Assembly: GCA_028583605.1 (NCBI GenBank)
Contig: CM053332.1
Span: 18,579,555-18,643,554, forward strand
Direction: 5' to 3'
Length of the DNA stretch: 64,000 bases
Origin: Dastarcus helophoroides
Taxonomy: Eukaryota; Arthropoda; Insecta; Coleoptera; Bothrideridae
Shown here: positions 2,761 to 63,215 of the stretch, one piece after another
Position numbering within the stretch: position 1 is the stretch's first letter
Layout of the letters: each line of letters begins with the position of its first letter
Position numbers and translations under genes: made by a program
Notes under the pieces: generated by a model
Databases searched by the model: none
What the model was told of the DNA's origin: nothing
The model's input: only the letters and a program-made list of their open reading frames with translations

Positions 2761-2960
2761 TTTTGGTGGAATGGATTGGTTCTTGGTTATCTTCAAAAAT
2801 TTAAATACAAATCTTGTCCCTTGAAACTAAGAAAGATTAAAAAACACAACAAAGATTGCTCTAACACGTTTCGATAGCCAAGCTATCATCTTCAGAAAGA
2901 TGTTGTGTTTTTTAATCTTTCTTGGTTTCAGGGGACAAGATTTGTATTTTAATTTTAATA
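2761..2960. mobile_element. Foldback element FB, copy
   Basis: Left arm from TGGAATGGATTGGTTCTTGG to GCCAAGCTATCATCTTC, then a shortened right arm ending in GGGGACAAGATTTGTATTTT. The right arm is the seed of the tandem array that follows. Confidence 0.8.
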
Positions 2961-3835
2961 ACCCTTTGTATTTCTCGAAATTTTGACTTTCTTGAGATTC
3001 GTTTTTTAAATCAAAATTTTGACCTTTTTTCTAAATGTTTATCATTTGTTAAGTTTGACTTTATTCTGAAAATTCTACTTTTTTTTTGCACGTTTCGATA
3101 GCCAAGCTATCATCTTCAGAGAGATGTTGTGTTTTTTAATCTTGCTTGGTTTCAGGGGACAAGATTTGTATTTTAATTTTAATAACCCTTTGTATTTCTC
3201 GAAATTTTGACTTTCTTGAGATTCGTTTTTTAAATCAAAATTTCGACCTTTTTTCTAAATGTTTATAATTTGTTAAGTTTGACTTTATTCTGAAAATTCC
3301 ACTTTTTTCCACGTTTCAATGGCCAAGCTATCATCTTCAGAGAGATGTTGTGTTTTTTAATCTTTTTTGGTTTCAGGGGACAAGATTTGTATTTTAATTT
3401 TAATAACCCTTTGTATTTCTCGAAATTTTGACTTTTGCCTTGAGATTCGTTTTTTAAATCAAAATTTCGACCTTTTTTCTAAATGTTTATCATTTGTTAA
3501 GTTTGACTTTATTCTGAAAATTCCACTTTTTTTTCACGTTTCGATAGCCAAGCTATCATCTTCAGAGAGATGTTGTGTTTTTTAATCTTTCTTGGTTTCA
3601 GAGGACAAGATTTGTATTTCAATTTTTATAACCCTTTGTATTTCTCAAGATTTTGACTTTTGCCTTGAGATTCGTTTTTTAAATTAAAATTTCGACCTTT
3701 TTTCTAAATGTTAATCATTTTCTAAGTTTGACTTTATTCTGAAAATTCCACTTTTTTTTCCACGTTTCAATGGCCAAGCTATCATCTTCAGAGAGATGTT
3801 GTGTTTTTTAATCTTTCTTGGTTTGAGGGGACAAG
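2870..3835 (+). repeat. Tandem repeat, about 222-bp unit, 4-5 copies
   Basis: Each unit holds part of a foldback arm (GCCAAGCTATCATCTTCAGA) plus T-rich filler ending in GAAAATTCCACTTTTTT. The word recurs near 2,878, 3,101, 3,323, 3,546 and 3,774, a spacing of 220-228 bp. The array formed after the foldback element had inserted. Confidence 0.85.
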
Positions 3836-5135
3836 ATTTGTACAAAACAAACAATTTAGAAAAAAGTGAAACTTTAAAGAAAGAAATGGAACTTTCAACA
3901 AAAATGTTAATTTAGAAAAAAAATTACCTAATTTTTTTAAAAAACATTGATAAATAAAAAAATCATTTAAATTATCCAAATTTAAGTAATTTTGAATTTC
4001 TAGATATAAATTTAAACAAAAGTCAAAATTTAAAGGAAATATGAGACGGGTTCAGTTTTGAGGGAAAAAATCGAAATTTCTTGGTTTGAGGGTACAAGAT
4101 TTGTACAAAACAAACAATTTAGAAAAAAGTGAAACTTTAAAGAATGAAATGGAACTTTCAACAAAAATGTTAATTTAGAAAAAAAATTACCTAATTTTTT
4201 TAAAAAACATTGATAAATAAATAAATAAAAAAAATCATTAAAATTATCCAAATTTAAGGAATTTTGAATTTCTACATATAAATTTAAACAAAAGTCAAAA
4301 TATTTAGGAATTATGAGACGGGTTCAGTTTTGAGGGAAAAAAATCGAAATTTCTTGGTTTGAGGGGACAAGATTTGTACAAAACAAACAATTTAGAAAAA
4401 AGTGAAACTTTAAAGAAAGAGATGGAACTTTCAACAAAAATGTTAATTTAGAAAAAAAATTACCTAATTTTTTTAAAAAACATTCATAAATAAATAAATA
4501 AAAAAATCATTAAAATTATCCAAATTTAAGGAATTTTGAATTTCTACATATAAATTTAAACAAAAGTCAAAATATTTAGGAATTATGAGACGGGTTCAGT
4601 TTTGAGGGAAAAAAATCGAAATTTCTTGGTTTGAGGAGACAAGATTTGTACAAAACAAACAATTTAGAAAAAAGTGAAACTTTAAAGAAAGAAATGGAAC
4701 TTTCAACAAAAATGTTAATTTAGAAAAAAAATTACCTAATTTTTTTTAAAAAACATTGATAAATAAATAAATGAAAAAATCATTTAAATTATCCAAATTT
4801 AAGGAATTTTGAATTTCTAGATATAAATTTAAACAAAAGTCAAAATTTAAAGGAAATATGAGACGGGTTCAGTTTTGAGGGAAAAAATCGAAATTTCTTG
4901 GTTTCAGGGGACAAGATTTGTACAAAACAAACAATTTAGAAAAAAGTGGAATTTTAAAGAAAGAGATCGGACTTTCAACAAAAATGTTAAAATTTAGAGA
5001 AAAAAAATACTTACATTTTTTAAAAAAACATTAATAAATAAAAAATCATTAAAATTATAGAAATTTAAGAAATTTTGAATTTCTACGTATAAATTTAAAC
5101 AAAAGTAAGAATATTTTGGAAATATGAGACGAAAT
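3818..5135 (+). repeat. Tandem repeat, about 261-272-bp unit, 5 copies
   Basis: Units begin CTTGGTTTGAGGGGACAAG near 3,818, 4,080, 4,353, 4,624 and 4,897, continue with ACAAAACAAACAATTTAG and end GAGACGGGTTCAGTTTTGAG. The last copy is the most diverged. The first bases of each unit are the end of a foldback arm. Confidence 0.9.
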
Positions 5136-6974: not shown

Positions 6975-7205
6975 TCCTTTGTTATCTTCAAAAATTGAAA
7001 TACAAATCTTGTCCCCTGAAACCAAGAAGGATTAAAAAATACAACAACGCGTTTCGATAGCCAAGCTATCATCTTCAGAGAGATACTTAAAAAGATATCA
7101 AAAGTATCCCTCTGAAGATGATAGCCTGACTATCGAAGCGCGTTGGAACAACCTTTGTTGTATTTTTTAATCTTTCTTCGTTTCAGGGGACAAGATTTGC
7201 ATTTT
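6975..7205. mobile_element. Foldback element FB, near-complete copy
   Basis: Left arm from TTGTTATCTTCAAAAATTG to AGCTATCATCTTCAGAG, spacer GATACTTAAAAAGATATC, then the inverted right arm to GGGGACAAGATTTGCATT. Its spacer and right arm recur inside the adjacent satellite. Confidence 0.85.
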
Positions 7206-16640: not shown

Positions 16641-17800
16641 TGAAAAATGTATAATAACACTGTAAGCTCCTAGTTTTAAGTTTTCACTTCTATCGGCAGT
16701 CTCATTACTATTTTTTTAGTATAATATTTAAAAATAGTTCATCTGGCGCACGCAAATTAAAAATCGTTAACAGTAATAGGAAAACCAATTTTCCTTTTTT
16801 TTTAAGCTAAGACTAGGATTAATCTAAATAATATCACTTCAGCCATGATAAAAATTAAAACTTCGTGAAGTTTTCTCTTTTGTACTTTTCTATAGGATTA
16901 TTTACATAAGAGAAATCTAATGAAAGCTGCACATGAAAAATTGAGTCTGATTTACTTAATAAAAATTTTTGTGTATGATAAAAGAACTTCAAAAACTTTA
17001 ACAAGTTAAATCCTAAGGATATGTTAAATCGAAATCGTTTTCATATAAAAATGGGGAAGGGCAATCTGCAGTAATATATTGATGTGACAAAATAAGGATG
17101 CGAGAAAAGTCGTTCCAACTTTGATAGCTTTCTAGCTTTCCTTATCATTTTATAAACTTACCCGATGGACCGCTTAAATTTTCATTTTCATTCAAGAGGG
17201 GACGACTTCAAAAACACTTCGATTTTCAGTTTAAATCACGACAAGGATATCACAGATTATTGAAGCGGGGAGTCAAGGCGAACATAAACCATAAAGACTA
17301 AAAATCGAGAATATTAATAGCAGGCAAATTTTGCGACTGATCCAAACAAGTAATTTAACCGAATTAGGAAATAAATTTTTTGAAAATTTCTTTAGACGCG
17401 TTGAGCCACTTTGATGGGGGGTAAACTTATGGTTTAGTATCGCCATCATGCGTTATCATCGGCTAAACTGTCTTACGAATATAAACCTCTAAAAAAATAA
17501 GGTTTCAAAACTAAAAAACTTACATAATAAGAAATAGCATTTTAAATACCAATTTGACATAATATGTCACGTGTCACAGACCTCATCGACAATTTGTGTG
17601 ATAAACTTCACATTTTTATCCTTTATGTTGGTATTAGAAATAAAAAGCTAAATGTATGTGCTGCAGAAATGATATTTGTTGACAGATGTTGAATATTATT
17701 ATTCACTATCAATAAACATTAAATTTGTTTCTACATGACTACAAAAATCCAAAGCACCAATATAAAAAGTAGATCAATTTGTGACTTCGTGGGTTCGAAC
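16641..17800. other. Gene-free DNA with one small duplicated segment
   Basis: 16,672-16,795 (landmark TTTTCACTTCTATCGGCAGT) is repeated at 18,503-18,630 on the far side of the microsatellite. The rest shows no gene. At 17,788-17,802 GTGGGTTCGAACTA resembles a tRNA B box, but no A box or tRNA fold accompanies it. Confidence 0.5.
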
Positions 17801-18449
17801 TACACTACACACTACACTACACACTACGCTACACACTACACTACACACTGCACTACGCACTACACTACACACTACACTACACACTACATTACACACTACA
17901 CTACACACTACACACTACACTAAACACTACACACTACACTACACTACACACTACACACTACACTACACACTACACTACACACTACACACTACACACTACA
18001 CTACACACTGTACACTACACACTACACACTACACACTACACACTACACTACACACTACACTACACACTACACTACACACTACACTACACACTACACTACA
18101 CACTACACACTACACTACACACTACACTACACACTACACTACACACTACACTACACACTACACTACACACTACACTACACTACACACTACACTACACACT
18201 ACACACTACACTACACACTTCACTACACACTACACTACACACTACACTACACGCTACACTACACACTACAATACACTACACACTACAATACACTACACAC
18301 TACACTACACTACACACTGCACTACACACTACACTACACACTACACTACACACTACACTACACACTACACTGCACACTACACTACACACTACACTACGCA
18401 CTGCACTACACACTACACTACACACTACACTACACTACACACTACACTA
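17801..18449 (+). repeat. Large G-poor microsatellite of ACTAC / ACACTAC words, about 650 bp
   Basis: A mix of 5-base CACTA and 7-base CACACTA units, with rare G substitutions and almost no G on the plus strand. It gives long spurious TTLHTTLH-like and HYTTHYTT-like frames that are not proteins. It is not the insect telomere repeat TTAGG. Confidence 0.97.
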
Positions 18450-27096: not shown

Positions 27097-27569
27097 GAAT
27101 TAATAGACTAACAATTTTTCTGGCAGCATTTAAAAATAACGAAAATGATCCCTCGCGTGCTGTCTGGTAAATTGCATGATAAATTTTAATGACAGTTAAA
27201 TGGCACAGCTCGCTAAACATTATATCTGCGGACGGAATTTATATTTTTATGGAAGGAATTCGGGCAAGGCGAAACCTATTTTAGGAGAGTTCATGTTGTT
27301 TCGGGAAAACGCGCTTTCGAGGCTCCCTAGCTTTGGAAGATTATTCCGGGTCGGATTTGAGACGGCTGAGAAATTAGAGATCGAAGGGGTGCCATGCACC
27401 GCATTTCGAACTAGTCGGAAACAAAGAGCGAATTTGTTGTAATCTAGAGAAAAACCGAGGGATAGGTTTAGGGGTTTACCTAAAGGGATTGGAAATGTAA
27501 AACGTATTGACGATACGTTTCCGTATATATTAGGTTTTGCCAACACAACGGATAAAGTGTATCAATGTT
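27097..27569. other. Low-copy DNA, no recognised gene
   Basis: Higher GC than its surroundings. Overlapping open frames of 80 codons (plus, 27,200-27,442) and 99 codons (minus, 27,247-27,546) have no domain I recognise. CAACGGATAAAGTGTATCAA near 27,547 matches, inverted, the unit near 51,030, so its right part belongs to the hammerhead repeat family. Confidence 0.4.
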
Positions 27570-27955
27570 ACTAATGCACAGACCAATAGGTTTGAACATT
27601 TATTAGATTCGAAGTGTGGAAACCAAATACCGGTTTCGATCTTGTTAGATCTCGTCAGTTTGGTATATCCAACTCGAATGCTAACAAATGTTTCGACAGG
27701 TAAGTACTAAAACATTCACAGACGTCAAGCGAGTGACTCTTAGTACTAGCACCTATTGGTCCATAGAGAAACTATGGCCATCGCCAACGATGTCGTATGC
27801 AAGTAGAATGCAACGTAGACTACAAATTCATGCAGCCCTCCAGGCGGCGTGTATAGTGAATCATAGGTAGCTGAACTACCAACAGTTGAAACACTGCCAC
27901 CTAGCGAAGCGGTTGCCCTCTAGGAAAGTTCCCAGAAGACAAGGATTCTAATGCA
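27570..27955 (-). mobile_element. Hammerhead-bearing repeat unit (HHR unit), full copy of about 386 bp
   Basis: From CTAATGCACAGACCAATAGG through the hammerhead to GAAACACTGCCACCTAGCGA and AGACAAGGATTCTAATGCAC; the same words start and end the unit, as in a circularly permuted tandem. Related copies are at 42,526-43,640 and 50,578-51,260. No coding frame. The size and the ribozyme fit the non-coding metazoan retrozymes thought to be mobilised by Penelope-like elements (inference). Confidence 0.8.
27606..27680 (-). ncRNA. Hammerhead ribozyme, type I, intact core
   Basis: On the minus strand: stem I strand ACCAAA, core CTGACGA, stem II GATCT-AACA-AGATC, core GAAA, minimal stem III ACC/GGT, cleavage triplet GTA, stem I return strand TTTGGT pairing fully with ACCAAA. 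An outer stem I helix is formed by TTGGA and TCCA(C/A). All invariant core bases are present. Stem III has no loop in a monomer (ACCGGT is self-complementary), the minimal form known in Penelope-like elements, which may act as a dimer. Predicted cut between 27,628 and 27,627. Confidence 0.87.
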
Positions 27956-28026
27956 CCTATGATTCACTATACACGCCTGGAGGGCTGCATGAATTTGTAG
28001 TCTAGGTTGCATTCTACTTGCATATT
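27953..28026 (+). repeat. Inverted fragment of the HHR unit
   Basis: CTATGATTCACTATACACGC to GTTGCATTCTACTTGCATA is the reverse complement of 27,795-27,872, giving a head-to-head junction. The same arrangement occurs at 50,590-50,805. Confidence 0.85.
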
Positions 28027-41639: not shown

Positions 41640-42525
41640 TGGTTCATTTGTCAAAAATTCGCCCTTTGCTAAAAACTTTATTAATTCTATAATAAAAAAG
41701 TAAAAATTTCGAAAAAACAATAATTTGAAAAATTGTTATAATAATATTTTAAGGTGATTTTCTTTTTTCCCAAAATTCGTCTTTCCATTTTTAAAATTTC
41801 GACTTATTTTCAAAATCTAACATTTTTTTTATAAATGACTTTTTCAACGTCTTTCCAATTTTAAAATTTAAGCCTATTTTTAAAATCCAACATTTTTGTG
41901 AGAAATGGCTTTTTCAACTTTGTTCTAAATTGCGATTTTTTTTTCGATATTTTGTCAATTTTCTGGAAATTTTGTCCTTCCTTTCAAAGTTCATTTCTTT
42001 TTCGAATTTTTCCCACGTTTCTAAGATATTGGTTTTTTTCTGAAACTTTCAGCTTTTTTTTAAATCCAACTTTCTACAAAGACTTGTTTCGCAACATTGG
42101 ATGTCTTATTTGAATATACTTTGTGTAAATCTTTTTTTTTCCCCAAATTTGGATGTTTAATATTTCTGCAAATTTCAACTTTTCTTTGTAAATTATTTTT
42201 GTTGTTGAAAGTTTCTCTGGCAAATTTAGAATTGCCACTTAACAGTTTAAAATTTCAACTTTCTACAAAGACTTGTTTCGCAACATTGGATGTCTTATCT
42301 GAATATACTTTGTGTAAATCTTTTTTTTCCCAAAATTGGATGTTTAATATTTCTGCAAATTTCAACTTTTCTTTGCAAATTATTTTTTTTTTTGACAGTT
42401 TCTCTGCCAAATTTAGAATTGCCACTTAACACTTTAAAATTTCAACTTTCTACAAAGACTTGTTTCGCAACATTGGATGTCTTATCTGAATATACTTTGT
42501 GTAAATCTTTTTTTTTTCACAAAAT
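41640..42525. repeat. T-rich filler and about 189-bp tandem repeat
   Basis: AAAGACTTGTTTCGCAACAT recurs near 42,077, 42,267 and 42,455, each followed by GAATATACTTTGTGTAAATC. The last unit runs straight into the hammerhead array, whose units also contain ATACTTTGTGTAAATC. Confidence 0.85.
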
Positions 42526-42709
42526 TGCATGCAAATGGAATACAAGCTAGACTGCAAATTTATGCAGTTATCCGGGCGTGTATTAATCATAGATAGCTAA
42601 ATTACCAACAGTTAAAACACTGCCCCCTAGCGAAGCGGTTGCTCTCTAGGAAAGTTCCCAGAAGACAAGGATTCTAATGCACAGACCAATAGGTTTGAAC
42701 ATTAATTAG

Positions 42710-42785
42710 ATTCGAAGTTTGGAAACTAGAAGAGATCTTCTTAGATCTCGTCAGCTTGGTATATCCAACTTGAATGGTAACAAAT
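42710..42785 (-). ncRNA. Degenerate hammerhead, core lost
   Basis: CTGACGA and stem II GATCT-AAGA-AGATC remain, but the GAAA core and stem III are replaced by TCTTCTAG. Predicted inactive. The copy at 43,131 shares the same change, so it was amplified with the tandem unit. Confidence 0.75.
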
Positions 42786-43097
42786 GTTCCAACAAGTAAG
42801 TACTAAAGACTCAACGAACGTCAAGTCTGTGACCCTCAGAGTACCGCCACATATTGGTCCATAGAGAAAATTATATATACTTTGTGTAAATCTTTTTTTT
42901 TCCCAAAATTGCATGCAAGTGGAATACAGCCTAGACTGCAAATTCATGCAGTTCTCCAGGAGTGTATAGTGAATCATAGGTAGCTGAATTACCAACAGTT
43001 GAAACACTGCCACCTAGCGAAGCGGTTGCTCTCTAGGAAAGTTCCCAGAAGACAAGGATTCTAATGCACAGACCAATAGGTTTGAACATTAATTAAG

Positions 43098-43173
43098 ATT
43101 CGAAGTTTGGCAACTAGAAGAGATCTTCTTAGATCTCGTCAGCTTGGTATATCCAACTTGAATGGTAACAAAT
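43098..43173 (-). ncRNA. Degenerate hammerhead, core lost
   Basis: Same state as the copy one unit to the left: CTGACGA and stem II kept, GAAA lost. Confidence 0.75.
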
Positions 43174-43485
43174 GTTCCAACAAGTAAGTACTAAAGACTC
43201 AACGAACGTCAAGTCTGTGACCCTCAGAGTACCGCCACATATTGGTCCATAGAGAAAATTATATATACTTTGTGTAAATCTTTTTTTTTTTCCCAAAATT
43301 GCATGCAAGTGGAATACAGCCTAGACTGCAAATTCATGCAGTTCTCCAGGCGTGTATAGTGAATCATAGGTAGCTGAATTACCAACAGTTGAAACACTGC
43401 CACCTAGCGGAGCGGTTGCTCTCTAGGAAAGTTCCCAGAAGACAAGGATTCTAATGCACAGACCAATAGATTTGAACATTAATTA

Positions 43486-43558
43486 GATTCGAAGTTTGGA
43501 AACCAAAGACCTGTTTCAATCTTGTTAGATCTCGTCAGTTTGGTATATCCAACTCAAA
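43486..43558 (-). ncRNA. Hammerhead ribozyme, core intact, weak stem III
   Basis: ACCAAA, CTGACGA, stem II GATCT-AACA-AGATT (one wobble pair), GAAA, ACAGGTC, then TTTGGT. Stem III pairs at only two positions, and the cleavage triplet is GTC. The outer stem I helix TTGGA/TCCAA is kept. Confidence 0.75.
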
Positions 43559-43576
43559 TCAACTTATTTGTATTTA

Positions 43577-43636
43577 TAAGATTCGAAGTTTGCAAACCAA
43601 ATACTAGTTTCGATCTTGTTAGATCTCGTCAGACGA
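43577..43636 (-). ncRNA. Hammerhead ribozyme, core intact but stem I truncated
   Basis: CTGACGA, stem II GATCT-AACA-AGATC, GAAA, ACTAGTA and TTTGGT are present. The 5' side of stem I is cut off where the inverted hAT-like copy begins. Stem III is ACTAGT instead of ACCGGT; both are self-complementary, so the change is compensatory. Confidence 0.75.
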
Positions 43637-45074
43637 GCTTTTCCCAATAAGTCAAATTTTACCACAAAGAATTTATGCGAATAAAGTTAAAATTTGGAAA
43701 AAAAGACCAATAATTAAAAAAAAAACTTTAAATTTGCGAAAAGACGACTTTTGACGAAAAAGTCGTTATTTTCAAAATAGAATGCAAAATTTTTCAGAGA
43801 AAGTCTGATTTTAAGAAAATTTGAGAACAAATTTGAACTTATCAAAAAGAGCAATTTTTACCTTTTTACAGAACTTACAAAAACTATTTTTCAGAATCTC
43901 CCAATCGATATTTTTCTCCAAATCTTTGTCTTTTTATCAAAATAGCGACCAAATTTTAAAAAAATACATTTTGGTTAATAAGGCCAAAGTTGCAGAAATT
44001 AGTAATTGTAAAAAGGGTCGAAATTTTCACAAAAAAAAACAAATTTAGAGAAATGGCGAAAATTTAAAAAAGAACTGACGAATTCGAAGAGCAAAATTCA
44101 AAATTTTGAGAAAAAAACGACCAGTTTTAGGAATACATTTGAAATTAAAAAAAAAACGAATTTTATAAAAGAAGTTTAAATTTCGAGAAAAATATCGAAA
44201 TTTGAAGGCAAACATTAAGGAATCATATTGAAAATAAAAAAAAGTAGGTTCTAAAAATATCGAAACTTACAAAAAAAGCCCGACATGAAAGAAATAATTT
44301 AAAAAAGAATCGAATTTTCCAGAGAGAAGCCGACATTTTGAGAAATTGAAATTTTAATTTGAAAAAAGTCGAATTTTGTGAATAGAATCATAATTTTTGA
44401 AGAAAAGACGAATTTTGACAAAAATAATCCTTTCAAGAAAAAGGCGAATTTGGAGGAAAAATTTGCCGTTTTCAAATAAAATGGAAATTTCGCAGAGAAC
44501 ACCAAATTTGAGAATAAGGTTTTAATTTTTTGAAAGAAAATTTTCTCGCAGGTTATATTTTTTATAAAAATGCAATATATTTCCAAAACCCATAATTTGT
44601 AAATAAATATTTTTTAAAAATTTTTACTTTTTTATCAAAAGATCGACCACATTTGGAAAAAATGCTAAATTTTAAGAAATCTGGGGAAAGTCGTATTATA
44701 AAAATAGGCGAAATTTTCAGAAAAATCTGAATTTTGAGAAACGACGAGATTTCGAAAAAAAACGACGAATTTTAAAATAAAAATTCGAAACTTGGAGAAA
44801 GTCAGAATTGAAGGCGAAAAATCGAGTTCGAAGAATATATTCGAAATTTCAAAAATAAAAAACGAATTTGTTGGAAAAACTCGAAATCTCAAGGAAAAAA
44901 TCCAATTTTGAACTATAAAAATAAAAATTTCTGGATAAACTCCTTTTCTGGTTGAACCTAACCCAGAGGGGGGAAAGTGGCATCAATCTGGAATCTGGTT
45001 CAACGTTGCTATGAGAGAAAAGTCTTTTTCCATATAAGTATATACCTATAATAACAAAAATTTCTAAATTTCAG

Positions 45075-45710
45075 GAACCCCTAAGAAGTTGCAACCTCGA
45101 AACTCCATCAGATCTCTGGCGCACAGCCAAAGCTCTAAGAGGAGACAGGAAACCTAACCAACCGATACACGAATCTCAAGATGACTTACTAGATTACTTA
45201 CCACTTACTTAGATCAGGCTCGCAGCTTTTGCCGAGATCTTTGAACGACACTGTCAAGCCATATTTAAAGAAGTGGATATAAACTTCGTAGAGGAGGTGG
45301 AAGAAGAGGTTCCAGTTCTTCAGGAGGAAGTGCCAGACGAAGACGACATCATCTAACCGACTAACGAGGAGGAAATACAAAGCTTTCTGTGCAAACTAAA
45401 CGTCAAAAAGTCTCCAGGTCCAGAAGGAATTCCAAACCAAGCTCTGAAGTCTCTTTTAAACCAAGCTGTCAAATACTTTGGAGCAATAGTCAATTCCATG
45501 TTTAGGTACCGGTATTTTCCCACAAGATAGAAGGCTGCAACGTTATCTTCATTCCTAAGCCACGTAAGGATGGAAAATTTTCCCAAAATTACAGGCCAAT
45601 TAGCCTCTTATCCAACTTGGGTAAGGTGGCGGAAAGGATTTTGAAGAAGCCTCTGCAGAATATCATCAGCGACCGCGACATCATTCCTAAGGAACAATTT
45701 GGGTCCCAAC
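45075..45710 (+). pseudogene. LINE ORF2 remnant: linker to RT fingers, frame broken
   Basis: DNA counterpart of 41,265-41,635: TTGCAACCTCGAAACTCCAT and a Glu-rich stretch with an in-frame stop near 45,355. Continues beyond the other copy with KKSPGPEGIPNQAL, the pre-RT block, and then several frameshifts. Confidence 0.8.
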
Positions 45711-45711
45711 T

Positions 45712-45999
45712 ATGCACTCTACCTCAGACCAGCTGCTGAGAGTGGTTGAAACAATCACTCAACGCATTTTTTTCGATATCTCCAAGGCATTTGATACAGT
45801 TTTGCACCAAGGACTAATCTACAAGATGCACCAGTTTGGAATACCTCTAATAATGGTTCAAATGGTAAGCTCGTTGCTGGACCAGCGCTCATTCAGAGCA
45901 AAGGTGGGACAGGAACTATCACACCAATTTAGGCTACAGCATGGGGTGCCTCAAGGCTCTGCCTTGTCACCTCTGCTATATTCTCTGTCCTTTATTTGA
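45712..45999 (+). pseudogene. LINE reverse transcriptase remnant with motifs A and B
   Basis: A frame of 95 codons. FFDISKAFDTV at residues 20-30 is motif A with the catalytic Asp at 22, and GVPQGSALSPLLY at 78-90 is motif B. The frame stops just after motif B, before the catalytic YADD, so no active enzyme is encoded. Jockey-type LINE by motif style. Confidence 0.9.
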
Positions 46000-46240
46000 A
46001 TAAATATACATTTTTGGTTCGCTGCTTTTAGCAAGGGAAGGGCAAGTGCCCAACCCTACCTTGTTCTAGTTACTCCCACGTGCAAGATCTAATAAGATCG
46101 AAACCTTTCTTTGAATTCCAAACTCTAAAGCAGATAAATGTTCAAACCAACCAATTTGTGCATTAGAACAAAGGCTTTATATAATAATGTAACAAAATGA
46201 AATTATAAAAATTTCTATTAGTAATTGTGTATTGTAAGGA
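46000..46240 (+). repeat. Non-LINE insert with a hammerhead relic
   Basis: Near 46,086-46,110 GATCTAATAAGATCGAAACC keeps stem II and the GAAA core of the hammerhead on the plus strand, but CTGACGA is lost. TTCAAACCAACCAATTTGTG and GCATTAGAACAAAGG are degraded HHR-unit words. Confidence 0.65.
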
Positions 46241-46636
46241 ACTCTCTCAGCCTCTTATCCAACTTTCTTTGATATCTTTAAGGCAACTGACACAGTTTGG
46301 CACTCTACAAGATGTACCAGTTTGGAATACCTCTAACAATGGTTCAAATGGTAAGCTCGTTCTTGAACCAGCGCTCATTCAAAGCAAAGGTGGGACAGGA
46401 ACTATCAAACCAGCTTAGGCTACAGTATGGGGTGCCTCAAGGCTCTGCCTTGTCATCTCTGCTGTATTCTCTGTTTACCGCAGACATCCCGAGAACCAAT
46501 CCAACAATTGATCCACACCTTATTGGCAACTTATGTAGGCGACACAGCTTTGGTGGCGTACTATTTCAATCCAGAGCTGGTCATCAAACGACTTCAGGAG
46601 GCAACAGATAGTCTACTAGATTACTTCGGTAAATAG
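46241..46636 (+). pseudogene. Second LINE RT remnant with motifs B and C
   Basis: GVPQGSALSSLLY is present in one frame and TYVGDTALVA in another, so a frameshift separates them. Motif C should be YADD; here it is YVGD, so the first catalytic Asp is replaced by Gly. Relative to 45,603-45,775 an internal deletion brings the upstream CTCTTATCCAACTT next to motif A, which is itself altered. Confidence 0.85.
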
Positions 46637-50577: not shown

Positions 50578-51260
50578 GATATGCAAGAAGAATGCAACCT
50601 AGACTACAAATTCATGCAGCCCTCCAGCCGTTTATAGTGAATCATAGGTGCATTAGAATCCTTGTCTTCTGGGAACTTTCCTAGAGAGCAACCGCTTCGC
50701 TAGGTGGCAGTGTTTCAACTGTTTGTAGTTCAGCTACCTATGATTCACTATACACGCCTGGAGGGCTGCATGAATTTGTAGTCTAGGTTGCATTCTACTT
50801 GCATACGATATTGTTGGTGATGGCCATAGTTTATCTATGAACCAATAGGTGGTAGTACTAAGAGTCACTCGCTTGACGTCTGTGAATGTTTTAGTACTTA
50901 CTTCTCGGAACATTTGTTAGCATTCGAGTTGGATATACCAAACTGACGAGATCTAACAAAATCGAAACCGGTATTTGGTTTTCAAACTTCGAGTCTAATA
51001 AATGTTCAAACCTATTGGTCTGTGTATTAGTAACATTGATACAATTTATCCGTTGAACTATGGCCATCGCCAACAATATCGTATGCAAGTAGAATGTAAC
51101 CTAGACTACAAATTCATGCAGCCCTCCAGGCGTGTATAGTGAATCATAGGTAGCTGAACTACCAACAGTTGAAACACTATCACCTAGCGAAGCGGTTGCT
51201 CTCTAGGAGAGTTCCCAGAAGACAAGGATTCTATAATGCACAGACCAATAGGTTTGATAG
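50578..51260 (+). mobile_element. HHR units in inverted and direct arrangement
   Basis: 50,590-50,805 contains inverted copies of TACAAATTCATGCAGCCCTC (palindromic junction as at 27,953). 50,806-51,050 then holds the hammerhead on the plus strand, and 51,060-51,260 a further unit fragment in the opposite sense. At least three rearranged unit pieces. Confidence 0.85.
50919..50995 (+). ncRNA. Hammerhead ribozyme, type I, near-intact
   Basis: ACCAAA, CTGACGA, stem II GATCT-AACA-AAATC (one C-A mismatch), GAAA, minimal stem III ACC/GGT, cleavage triplet GTA, TTTGGT return strand. The outer stem I is TTGGA with TTCAA, where a G-U wobble replaces a G-C pair, so pairing is kept despite the change. 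Predicted cut after 50,973. Confidence 0.83.
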
Positions 51261-52164
51261 ATTTTTAAATTCTAAACAAAAAATGTTTTGTCGCATTTTT
51301 TATCTGGAGAAGCCGTTTAAAAAAAGGTAAAAAGCTAAAAACAATTTAAAAAAAAAAATACACGGTAGGTTTTTTCTAGAACATTCGACTTTTTTCTCGA
51401 ATTAAGATCCAAATTCTATTTAAAAGAAAAAGTACGAATTCACCTCGACAGTCAAATTTTTTTCTCAAAATTCAATCTCATGTGTTTTTGCAAATTTTGA
51501 CTTTTGCCTCAAAAGTCGAAAATTCGTCTTTTATTAAGATTTCTACCTTTTTTTAAATATTTTTCGTTGTTTTTAATTTAAAATCTGTCGTCAAAATTCG
51601 ACCTTCTTCTCAAAATTTGATTTGTTGTTTAAATTTCGGTTTTTTTCTGTAAAATTTCCAAACTCAACATTTTTAAATTGGTATTTTGCTCGAAGTTTCA
51701 ATTAATTTTGAAAAATAATTGAAATTTCGAAAAGATTACCAACCTGAAAATGTTGAATATTGACATTTTCAGCAAAAGACTGAACTCTACAAACTGATGG
51801 TTTATCTTTATTTTTCAGAATTTGGACTTCGTTTCCACAATTCAACTTTTGGTTGGACTTTTTAATGGAAAATTTGATTACAAGCTTCAATCCTTTATTT
51901 CATTCTTTTTCTTTTCTTCTTCCTTCTTCTCTCCTTCTTCTTTTTCTTTTTTTTTTTCATTATTTTTATGAAAATATCTTCTTTTCTGCACATTTAGTTT
52001 AAAGTCATTTTCTGTTTCTAGTAAATTTCGATTCAAAATTCGTAATTGTTTTCCAAAATTTTTAATTTTTCTTTTCGAGAATGGTTGCAAATTTTATGAG
52101 AAATGTTAAAAATTTCTCCAGACGTTTCAATCCTATTAAAATCTTACTCTTTGTTTTTTTTTTT
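51261..52164. repeat. T-rich degenerate filler
   Basis: Same word family as elsewhere. Landmark AACATTTTTAAATTGGTATT near 51,667 recurs near 52,932, 54,847, 55,567, 56,467 and 56,826, so the filler to 57,030 is built of long imperfect duplications. No gene. Confidence 0.7.
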
Positions 52165-52380
52165 GGTGAAACGGACTGGTCCTTGGTTATCTTCAAAAAT
52201 TGAAATACAAAACTTGTCCCCTGAAACCAAGAAAGATTAAAAACACAACAAAAGGTTGCTCTAACGCGTTTCGACAGAGAGGCATCTATCTGAAGATCAT
52301 AGCTTGACTGTCGAAACGCGTGAGAGCAACCTTTGTTGTGCTTTTTAATCTTTCTTGGTTTCAAGGGACAAGTTTTGTAT
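52165..52380. mobile_element. Foldback element FB, near-complete copy
   Basis: AACGGACTGGTCCTTGGTTA at the left, centre GAGAGGCATCTATCTGAAGA, right arm to GGGACAAGTTTTGTATTT. Confidence 0.85.
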
Positions 52381-53364: not shown

Positions 53365-53575
53365 TTTGGTGGAACGGACTGGTTCTTGGTTATCTTCAAA
53401 AATTGAAATACAAAACTTGTCCCCTGAAACCAAAAAAGATTAAAAAACACAGCAAAAGTTGCTCTAACGCGTTTCGACAGAGAAGCATCTATCTGAAGAT
53501 CATAGCTTTGCTGTCGAAATGCGTAAGAGCAGCTTTTCATTCTTTCTTGGTTTCAGCGGAAAATATTTGTATTTC
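53365..53575. mobile_element. Foldback element FB, near-complete copy
   Basis: TGGAACGGACTGGTTCTTGG on the left and a right arm degraded after GCAGCTTTTCATTCTTTC. The flanking filler is nearly the same as that at 52,165, so the element and its flank were duplicated together. Confidence 0.82.
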
Positions 53576-57029: not shown

Positions 57030-57210
57030 TGAAATACAGAACTTGTCCCCTGAAACCAAGAAAGATTAAAAAACACAACAAAGGTTGCTCTAGAGCTAGA
57101 GCTTAGAACAATCTTTGTTGTGTCTTTTAATCTTTCTTGGTTTCAGGGAACAAGTTTTGTATTTCAATTTTTGAAGGTAAACAAGGACCAGTCCGTTCAA
57201 TCAAAAATTC
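57030..57210. mobile_element. Foldback element FB, copy with short centre
   Basis: GAACTTGTCCCCTGAAACCA on the left, an abbreviated centre CTCTAGAGCTAGAGCTTAG, and the right arm to CAGTCCGTTCAATCAAAA. The left outer end is missing. Confidence 0.82.
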
Positions 57211-62163: not shown

Positions 62164-63102
62164 TCAGGTGACCGTTGTTCCATAGGAAACAGCCGATCCA
62201 CTGCTAGTGCTCCTTCTCCCATTTATTTGCCCTATCGTTGTTAGCTCGCCATCAGACGGATGTAGATAATGATCACCGAACTTATCCCTATACGACGTCC
62301 GGTGTTGGTGTATTGAATTCAGTATGATATTAGACGAAGTTCTAGACAAGGCTTTTCGTTGTCTCACAGCTTCCTTATATATTCTAAAGTACATTGTCAC
62401 CATAACAATACCGGGTATCCAGAAACTTATCGAACTAGATATTATCGCGTAATATTTGTTAACGACAAAACTGCACACATTCGGGTATCTATCGCGTATT
62501 TCCAATTGTTCATCCGTCGTATACCAACCGAGAAAAATCGGGATAAAACTTATCAACGCCGGCATGATCCAAACGTTGGCCAGCATGAAGGAAACAGTGT
62601 TGTGCGTCATAGTGATCGGATACTCCAGAGGCCTCACGATGGCGTAATATCTGTCGACGCTTATGCAACAGAGGTGTAAGATGGAAGCAGTGGAAAAGTA
62701 AACGTCCAGGGAATTCCACACATCGCACATAAACGAACCGAACAACCATTTACCGCCTGTGAGCTCCACGCTAGCGTTGAAGGTCATCGCGCAAAGGGCC
62801 ACCAGGGTATCGGCCAAGGCTAAACTTACAACGTAGTAATTTGTTATCACTCTCAGTTTCCTATGTCTATGAACACTTATTATTACCAACGCATTGCCTA
62901 AAACGGCACTTATTATTATTGTTCCGAATATGAAACCTTTTATTATTAACAGTAAGAGGTCGGCCCAGTCCGGATGAGGATGTTCAATGCTTGTTATATT
63001 CGTGCGGTTAACTAATACCGATGAATTCTGAGCTACCGTCGGAATACTCGTCGCAGTAGCTGAAAGGGTTGCTGAAAAGGAAGCCATGGCGTTTACTATC
63101 AT
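62164..63102 (-). CDS. Octbeta2R: Beta-type octopamine receptor, 5' coding exon (TM1-TM5, start of loop 3); partial
   Basis: Class A GPCR for the monoamine octopamine, a plasma-membrane receptor that in insects couples to Gs and raises cAMP (family knowledge). Numbering from the ATG at 63,102 (A at -3, in-frame stop upstream; a second ATG at 63,087 has a better GCCATGG context): N-glycosylation sequons at N26, N32 and N35; TM1 about 48-74 with GN at 69-70; TM2 with LALAD ending at D98; disulfide Cys 126; amine-binding Asp 133; DRY 150-152; TM4 Trp 178; loop-2 Cys 210; TM5 with Ser 222, 223 and 226 and Pro 230; loop-3 motif [12 protein letters not shown] at 247-258. That loop and the TM3-TM4 region match Octbeta2R better than Octbeta1R or Octbeta3R from memory. 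The frame meets TGA at 62,164-62,166 after 312 codons, before TM6. A strong donor lies 65 bp further and the DNA between is open in another frame, so this is a partial gene with an unresolved exon end. Confidence 0.93.
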
Positions 63103-63215
63103 TGTGTTCCATGGACGCTTCAATTCGATTCTCTCCTTCGATCCTCAGTGTTCATCTTATTCTGCTCTATTCGTTCGAGTATCTTCTTTTGGTGTCACAT
63201 TCTATCTGAAACAAT
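63103..63215 (-). promoter_or_regulatory. Octbeta2R: 5' UTR and putative splice acceptor of the octopamine receptor exon
   Basis: On the minus strand TTGTTTCAG, ending at 63,206, is a good 3' splice acceptor. It would start the exon at 63,205 and leave about 100 bases of 5' UTR before the ATG. An in-frame TGA about 45 bases upstream of the ATG shows that the coding frame starts in this exon. Earlier non-coding exons and the promoter would lie to the right, possibly outside the window. Confidence 0.5.

Follow-up and report, generated by a model that had tools for sequence, protein, structure and literature searches.

A hammerhead motif on the minus strand of a 64-kb stretch of the Dastarcus helophoroides genome (the window, 64,000 nucleotides in all) is probably the ribozyme with which a small retrozyme-like element, non-autonomous and of about 375 nt per unit, cuts its own RNA; further copies of the element lie in the same window. 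The motif, its copies, the unit and the fold statistics were computed here; cleavage, dimerisation, circularisation and reverse transcription are steps that we infer after the description of animal retrozymes in PMC7229834.

Anatomy and copies of the hammerhead

A type I hammerhead is defined by a CUGANGA core strand, a GAA strand, an A15.1-U16.1 pair, an NUH cleavage triplet and a stem I with open ends. An earlier note had placed such a motif, with all core bases present, at 27606..27680 of the minus strand, and direct reading recovers the complete set in the copy that we call A (Table 1). The inner stem I of 6 bp pairs ACCAAA (27664-27659) with TTTGGT (27627-27622), and the outer helix that had also been described forms 12 pairs, bulged, between 27679-27668 and 27620-27607. 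The core strand CTGACGA (27658-27652) leads into a 5-bp stem II (27651-27647 with 27642-27638) capped by the AACA loop (27646-27643), followed by GAA (27637-27635), A15.1 (27634), U16.1 (27629) and the triplet GTA, or GUA in RNA (27630-27628), whose A at 27628 is H17. Inner stem, stem II with its loop, both core strands and triplet are thus all found as the note had them, and the same reading puts the predicted cleavage bond at 27628/27627, where it had been proposed. Core position 7, a variable position of the hammerhead, is C in place of the usual U. The internal loop UAU/U of stem I and the AACA loop II are both present. The minimum-energy fold of the region (z of −5.35, 200 shuffles) is a close relative of the hammerhead in which the core CUG is paired, not the hammerhead itself. 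Two features had been missed: stem III amounts to a single A-U pair enclosing a palindrome, and copy A is not the only copy in the window.

Table 1. Coordinates of the hammerhead copies, repeat units and associated pieces in the window.
Feature	Position	Strand	Description
Hammerhead copy A, type I	27607..27679	−	supported by sequence, HH9 match, fold z and pair counts
Stem III palindrome of copy A, ACCGGT	27629..27634	−	pairs as a single A-U within one RNA, or over 6 bp across two copies
Unit A, retrozyme-like, 377 bp	27578..27954	−	43.5% GC; holds copy A; aligned with other units
Inverted piece, about 70 nt, 5′ side of unit A	27955..28024	+	inverse of 27796-27868
3′ tail, 25 nt	27546..27570	−	common to the 50.6k element, one difference
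Hammerhead copy B	50925..50996	+	intact core; stem III ACCGGT; one stem II mismatch; HH9 26.1 bits
Unit B, 374 bp	50650..51023	+	holds copy B
Antisense pieces flanking unit B	50580-50649 and about 51056-51275	opposite to unit	
Hammerhead copy C	43485..43556	−	intact core; GTC triplet; stem III ACAGGT, non-palindromic; HH9 29.2 bits
Hammerhead copy D, 3′ part	43572..43632	−	starts at CTGACGA; lacks the 5′ strand of stem I; palindromic stem III, ACTAGT
Two array hammerheads	about 43163-43100 and 42775-42712	−	GAAA and stem III destroyed
Copy G, hammerhead remnant, truncated and decayed	46085..46169	+	between two reverse-transcriptase-like remnants
Tandem array, units of 390 and 387 bp	42529..43645	−	two full units with dead hammerheads and a partial third

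BLAST, a motif scan and nhmmer together find the hammerhead region at seven places in the window, as copies or remnants (copy A and six more). Cores are intact in three of the seven (A at 27.6k, B at 50.9k and C at 43.5k), and each of these three has the core strand, GAA, A15.1-U16.1, NUH triplet and open stem I of the type I definition. Their stems are paired in 71 of 72 cells, the changes amounting to four wobble substitutions and one mismatch; a G-U pair forms the base of stem II in copy C. Compensatory double changes number 0 in the 24 stem pairs of A, B and C, a test without power on three sequences, given that all shuffles reach the observed values. Between A and B, substitutions fall at 4 of 71 positions of the hammerhead and at 17 of 404 in the rest, with no excess conservation of the hammerhead. 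The hammerhead regions at 43572-43645 and 43485-43556 are spaced 94 bp from core to core, far below the unit length. Exact DNA patterns of the family gave no match in viral_contigs or genome_contigs, which hold viral and prokaryote records, so that this result says little.

The comparison with Rfam covariance models, which the earlier note had named as a check, came out in part: Hammerhead_HH9 matches copy A at 27604-27677(−) by E-value (3.4e-5 in 801 bases, 0.0027 in the whole window), while the score of 29.5 bits stays below the curated gathering score of 52. Gathering scores are reached by no Rfam family anywhere in the 64-kb window. The whole-window search also matches HH9 to copy C (E of 0.0032) and copy B (E of 0.031), and these three are the only hammerhead rows among the 32 listed. 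Thirteen of the 32 rows, nearly all of them microRNA models, outscore copy A in bits, and four microRNA-family rows at two places have better E-values, so that the HH9 E-value alone would not convince. We take the microRNA-model matches to be long inverted repeats, and the HH9 model is narrow, built as it is on conserved vertebrate intron ribozymes. The core and stems, the HH9 match and the two further copies with intact cores support the earlier assignment to a type I hammerhead within a repeat of an insect.

Several other features of the window were recorded. Long near-perfect hairpins at 7050-7140, 57031-57165, 52249-52336 and 53452-53539 match microRNA models below cut-off and are probably small inverted-repeat transposons; an arm of the hairpin at 7.1k resembles, by eye, a 224-bp tandem repeat at 2865-3842. 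A 12-bp ACTACACTACAC repeat occupies 17799-18447 in 54 copies. The octopamine beta-3R-like receptor encoded at 62164-63144(−) shares 85% identity with the Zophobas morio receptor. Among its 49 best matches, 25 rows name an organism and 24 of these are beetles, in keeping with a beetle host; the highest-scoring row is an ant protein (60% identity).

Repeat units, inverted pieces and folding of the unit

Copies A and B sit in units of 377 and 374 bp, and the tandem array is built of units of 390 and 387 bp; the units are AT-rich and partly tandem. The heptamer GCATTAG of unit A is repeated right after the unit (27577-27571). Allowing up to three mismatches, the 25-nt tail of A and of the 50.6k element occurs nowhere else in the window. 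Upstream of both A and B, an inverted piece of about 70 nt is fused to the 5′ side at the same junction. Unit B has another reversed piece, about 220 nt long, on its downstream side, and the two antisense flanks of this unit form a 70-nt direct repeat, 502 apart. No LTR was seen around unit A, and around unit B there is the 70-nt direct repeat made by the reversed pieces; flanks read by eye show no clear target-site duplication. A simple inversion inside a tandem array fails, on paper, to explain the layout of the 50.6k element. Our guess is that the inverted pieces arose by reverse transcription with a strand switch.

The only tandem array has a different character. Both of its full units and the partial third contain about 40 nt resembling the 187-bp satellite next to the array, and the full units share the same destroyed ribozyme, from which we conclude that at least some of the array's growth took place at the DNA level. 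The 187-bp satellite (42067-42531) directly adjoins the array (42529-43645), giving a chimeric satellite. Nothing points to a gene in the unit: the window has 45 stop-to-stop frames that are 90 aa or longer, and units A and B contain none of them; a frame of 90 aa is located within the array (42741-43013) and another touches its end (42251-42550). Two RVT_1 fragments, alike by eye, were seen at 45691-46611 with E-values of 8.4e-13 and 7.4e-4, the latter below the curated cut-off, and it is between these two that hammerhead remnant G is found.

Folded as a 377-nt circular RNA, unit A reaches −135.3 kcal/mol against a shuffle mean of −91.8 (sd 5.5), that is, a z of −7.87 (200 shuffles), part of this stability coming from the ribozyme's own stems. 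The opposite strand of the same unit folds to −102.4 kcal/mol, and in four of four units the hammerhead strand folds better than its complement. The z of the circle is −6.0 for unit B and −3.7 and −2.84 for the array units with dead ribozymes; controls, ten rows from five places (40 shuffles each) chosen arbitrarily and unmatched for GC, range from −1.99 to +1.43. That the ribozyme strand is the structured one, and most so in units with an intact ribozyme, fits a repeat that lives as RNA.

Stem III and pairing between two ribozymes

In copies A and B the four bases CCGG separate A15.1 from U16.1, leaving the A-U as the sole intramolecular pair. Stem III can be read in four copies and is palindromic in three of them, as ACCGGT in A and B and as ACTAGT in D, where both inner bases are changed relative to ACCGGT; copy C has ACAGGT, and the remaining three of the seven copies, with decayed stem III, fall outside this count. 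Three palindromes among four readable copies are a suggestive pattern only, to which copy C is a direct counter-example.

Predicted energies bear on the same point. With its A-U stem III, the hammerhead of the copy A monomer has −9.8 kcal/mol against a minimum of −18.9, which is 9.1 above the minimum; without stem III it has −15.3. The double hammerhead of copy A, at −39.9 kcal/mol, is only 0.3 from the dimer minimum of −40.2. The double form lies 13 kcal/mol above the dimer minimum in copy B (−25.5 vs −38.5) and 8.9 above it in copy C (−26.6 vs −35.5), the latter computed without stem III given its broken palindrome. In the predicted monomer ensemble, core bases C3, U4 and G5 pair with the stem III stretch at a mean probability of 0.98 in A, 0.93 in B and 0.87 in C. 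These fold energies leave out the loop-loop contacts, which favour the hammerhead, so that the monomer may still cleave. We predict cleavage by dimers, the mode known from newts and suggested for Aedes; with stem III nearly absent, monomer RNA may be a poor cleaver and dimer RNA a good one.

Origin of the repeat and relation to known hammerhead elements

According to the retrozyme model that we favour, read-through transcripts of tandem or circular units would be cut at GUA^UUUGG (27628/27627) by the type I hammerhead. Cutting would be mainly the work of two ribozymes with a common 6-bp stem III, a double hammerhead, because stem III is a palindrome without a proper loop. Monomers with 5′-OH and cyclic phosphate ends would then be closed into circles by a host ligase. 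An autonomous retroelement, Penelope-like or LINE, would supply the reverse transcriptase that copies the circles, and the copies would be inserted. Several observations speak against this model: Rfam gives no match at a gathering score, compensatory changes are absent from the stems (in the test without power), the double hammerhead lies well above the dimer minimum in copies B and C, the flanks show by eye no clear target-site duplication, the sole array, with its satellite-like sequence and dead ribozymes, looks expanded as DNA, and the inverted piece common to A and B is unexplained by it. For one Penelope-like element, moreover, insertion in vitro was independent of hammerhead cleavage (PMC11167929).

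In another account, the ribozyme belonged to a retrozyme now extinct and the copies, a decayed satellite, spread at present only as DNA through tandem duplication and segmental copying. The identical destruction of the hammerhead in both full array units, together with the local 187-bp satellite-like sequence, and the odd inverted junction and tail common to A and B are in line with such a history, which we nevertheless judge somewhat unlikely: all core bases and nearly every paired stem cell (71 of 72) are kept in A, B and C, and A and B, oppositely oriented, are separated by 23 kb and share no flanks beyond the 25-nt tail. That the pattern arose by chance in an AT-rich repeat is extremely improbable, even though a loose descriptor (core, stem II of at least 3 bp and stem I of at least 4 bp) finds 0.1 loci per simulated window and 13 of the 32 whole-window Rfam rows lie above the hammerhead score. 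Over 300 simulated windows with the dinucleotide make-up of the real one (Markov), this loose descriptor gave 31 loci against three in the real window, and the strict one, which requires 5 bp or more in stem II and 6 bp or more in stem I besides the core, gave two loci in all 300 against two in the real window alone, the real loci being members of one family and hence not independent. The core kept in three copies and the strong fold of the unit on the ribozyme strand likewise argue against coincidence.

Among the contexts listed by the earlier note, the non-coding retrozyme fits best. Another of them, the Penelope-like element, would make the motif part of a pseudo-LTR and not of a non-autonomous retrozyme, and has in its favour that such elements, in the available text of PMC7761336 and PMC11167929, bear hammerheads of type I in which stem III is short or missing and which may work in dimeric form. 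The hammerheads described there are minimal and without loop-loop contacts, whereas stem I of copy A is long and in two parts. Moreover, Pfam on 10 chosen frames and a simple GIY-YIG pattern, which fits none of the 221 frames that are 60 aa or longer, revealed no Penelope-type gene in the window. The reverse-transcriptase signals among the 10 Pfam frames are the two RVT_1 fragments, elsewhere in the window and one of them below cut-off, and units A and B are without any frame of at least 90 aa. We judge a Penelope origin improbable.

The retrozyme reading accords with what is described for animals in the available text of Cervera and de la Pena 2020 (PMC7229834), where non-LTR retrozymes with type I hammerheads are reported from many animals, insects included, as repeats of 150-450 bp with less than 50% GC that are expressed as linear and circular RNA. 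The beetle repeat shares the type I hammerhead, the unit size (374-390 bp), the GC content (43.5% in A), the partly tandem arrangement and a circle predicted to fold strongly. The same text credits most invertebrate retrozyme hammerheads with a stable helix III and good cleavage as monomers, and amphibian ones with a one-pair helix III, a palindromic tetraloop and much better activity as dimers. The beetle unit differs from most invertebrate retrozymes in its one-pair stem III, and also in its fused inverted pieces. In its stem III it resembles, by description, the newt and axolotl HHR_Amex1 satellite (unit of 330 bp against 374-390 bp in the beetle), which has a single-pair helix III with a palindromic tetraloop and cleaves poorly as a monomer and well as a dimer (PMC7229834). 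Among insect repeats, a stem III with a palindrome has already been described in Aedes aegypti (Perreault 2011, PMC3088659, available portion), where a dimer was also proposed; those hammerheads, likened by description, differ in their 10-bp dimer stem, and the Aedes motif tested there showed no cleavage in the assay. The Dolichopoda pDo500 satellite (PMC2837043, available portion) is, again by description, a tandem-repeat hammerhead of an insect for which single and double forms are discussed, and differs in that stem III pairs within one RNA even in the double form. No beetle hammerhead repeat is named in the titles or opening lines of abstracts among the matches listed from the open-licence literature, and the hosts named in the available portions of PMC6309819 and PMC2808323 are salamanders, schistosomes and cave crickets, with no beetle.

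The beetle repeat thus appears to be a new family within a class of mobile elements that has been described before, a probable addition to the animal retrozymes with an amphibian-like stem III in place of the stable helix III of most invertebrates. Should its ribozyme act chiefly as a pair, cleavage would fall on multimeric transcripts and spare the monomer circles. We also consider, as an unlikely possibility, that the palindrome serves as a dimerisation switch: in the monomer circle it would pair with the catalytic CUG and shield the circle from opening, and in multimers two palindromes would pair with each other and free two active cores. How animal retrozyme circles stay closed is left open in the available text of PMC7229834, where, for the circles folded there, a cause apart from self-pairing is suspected; if true, such a switch would be a built-in answer to this question for this beetle family.
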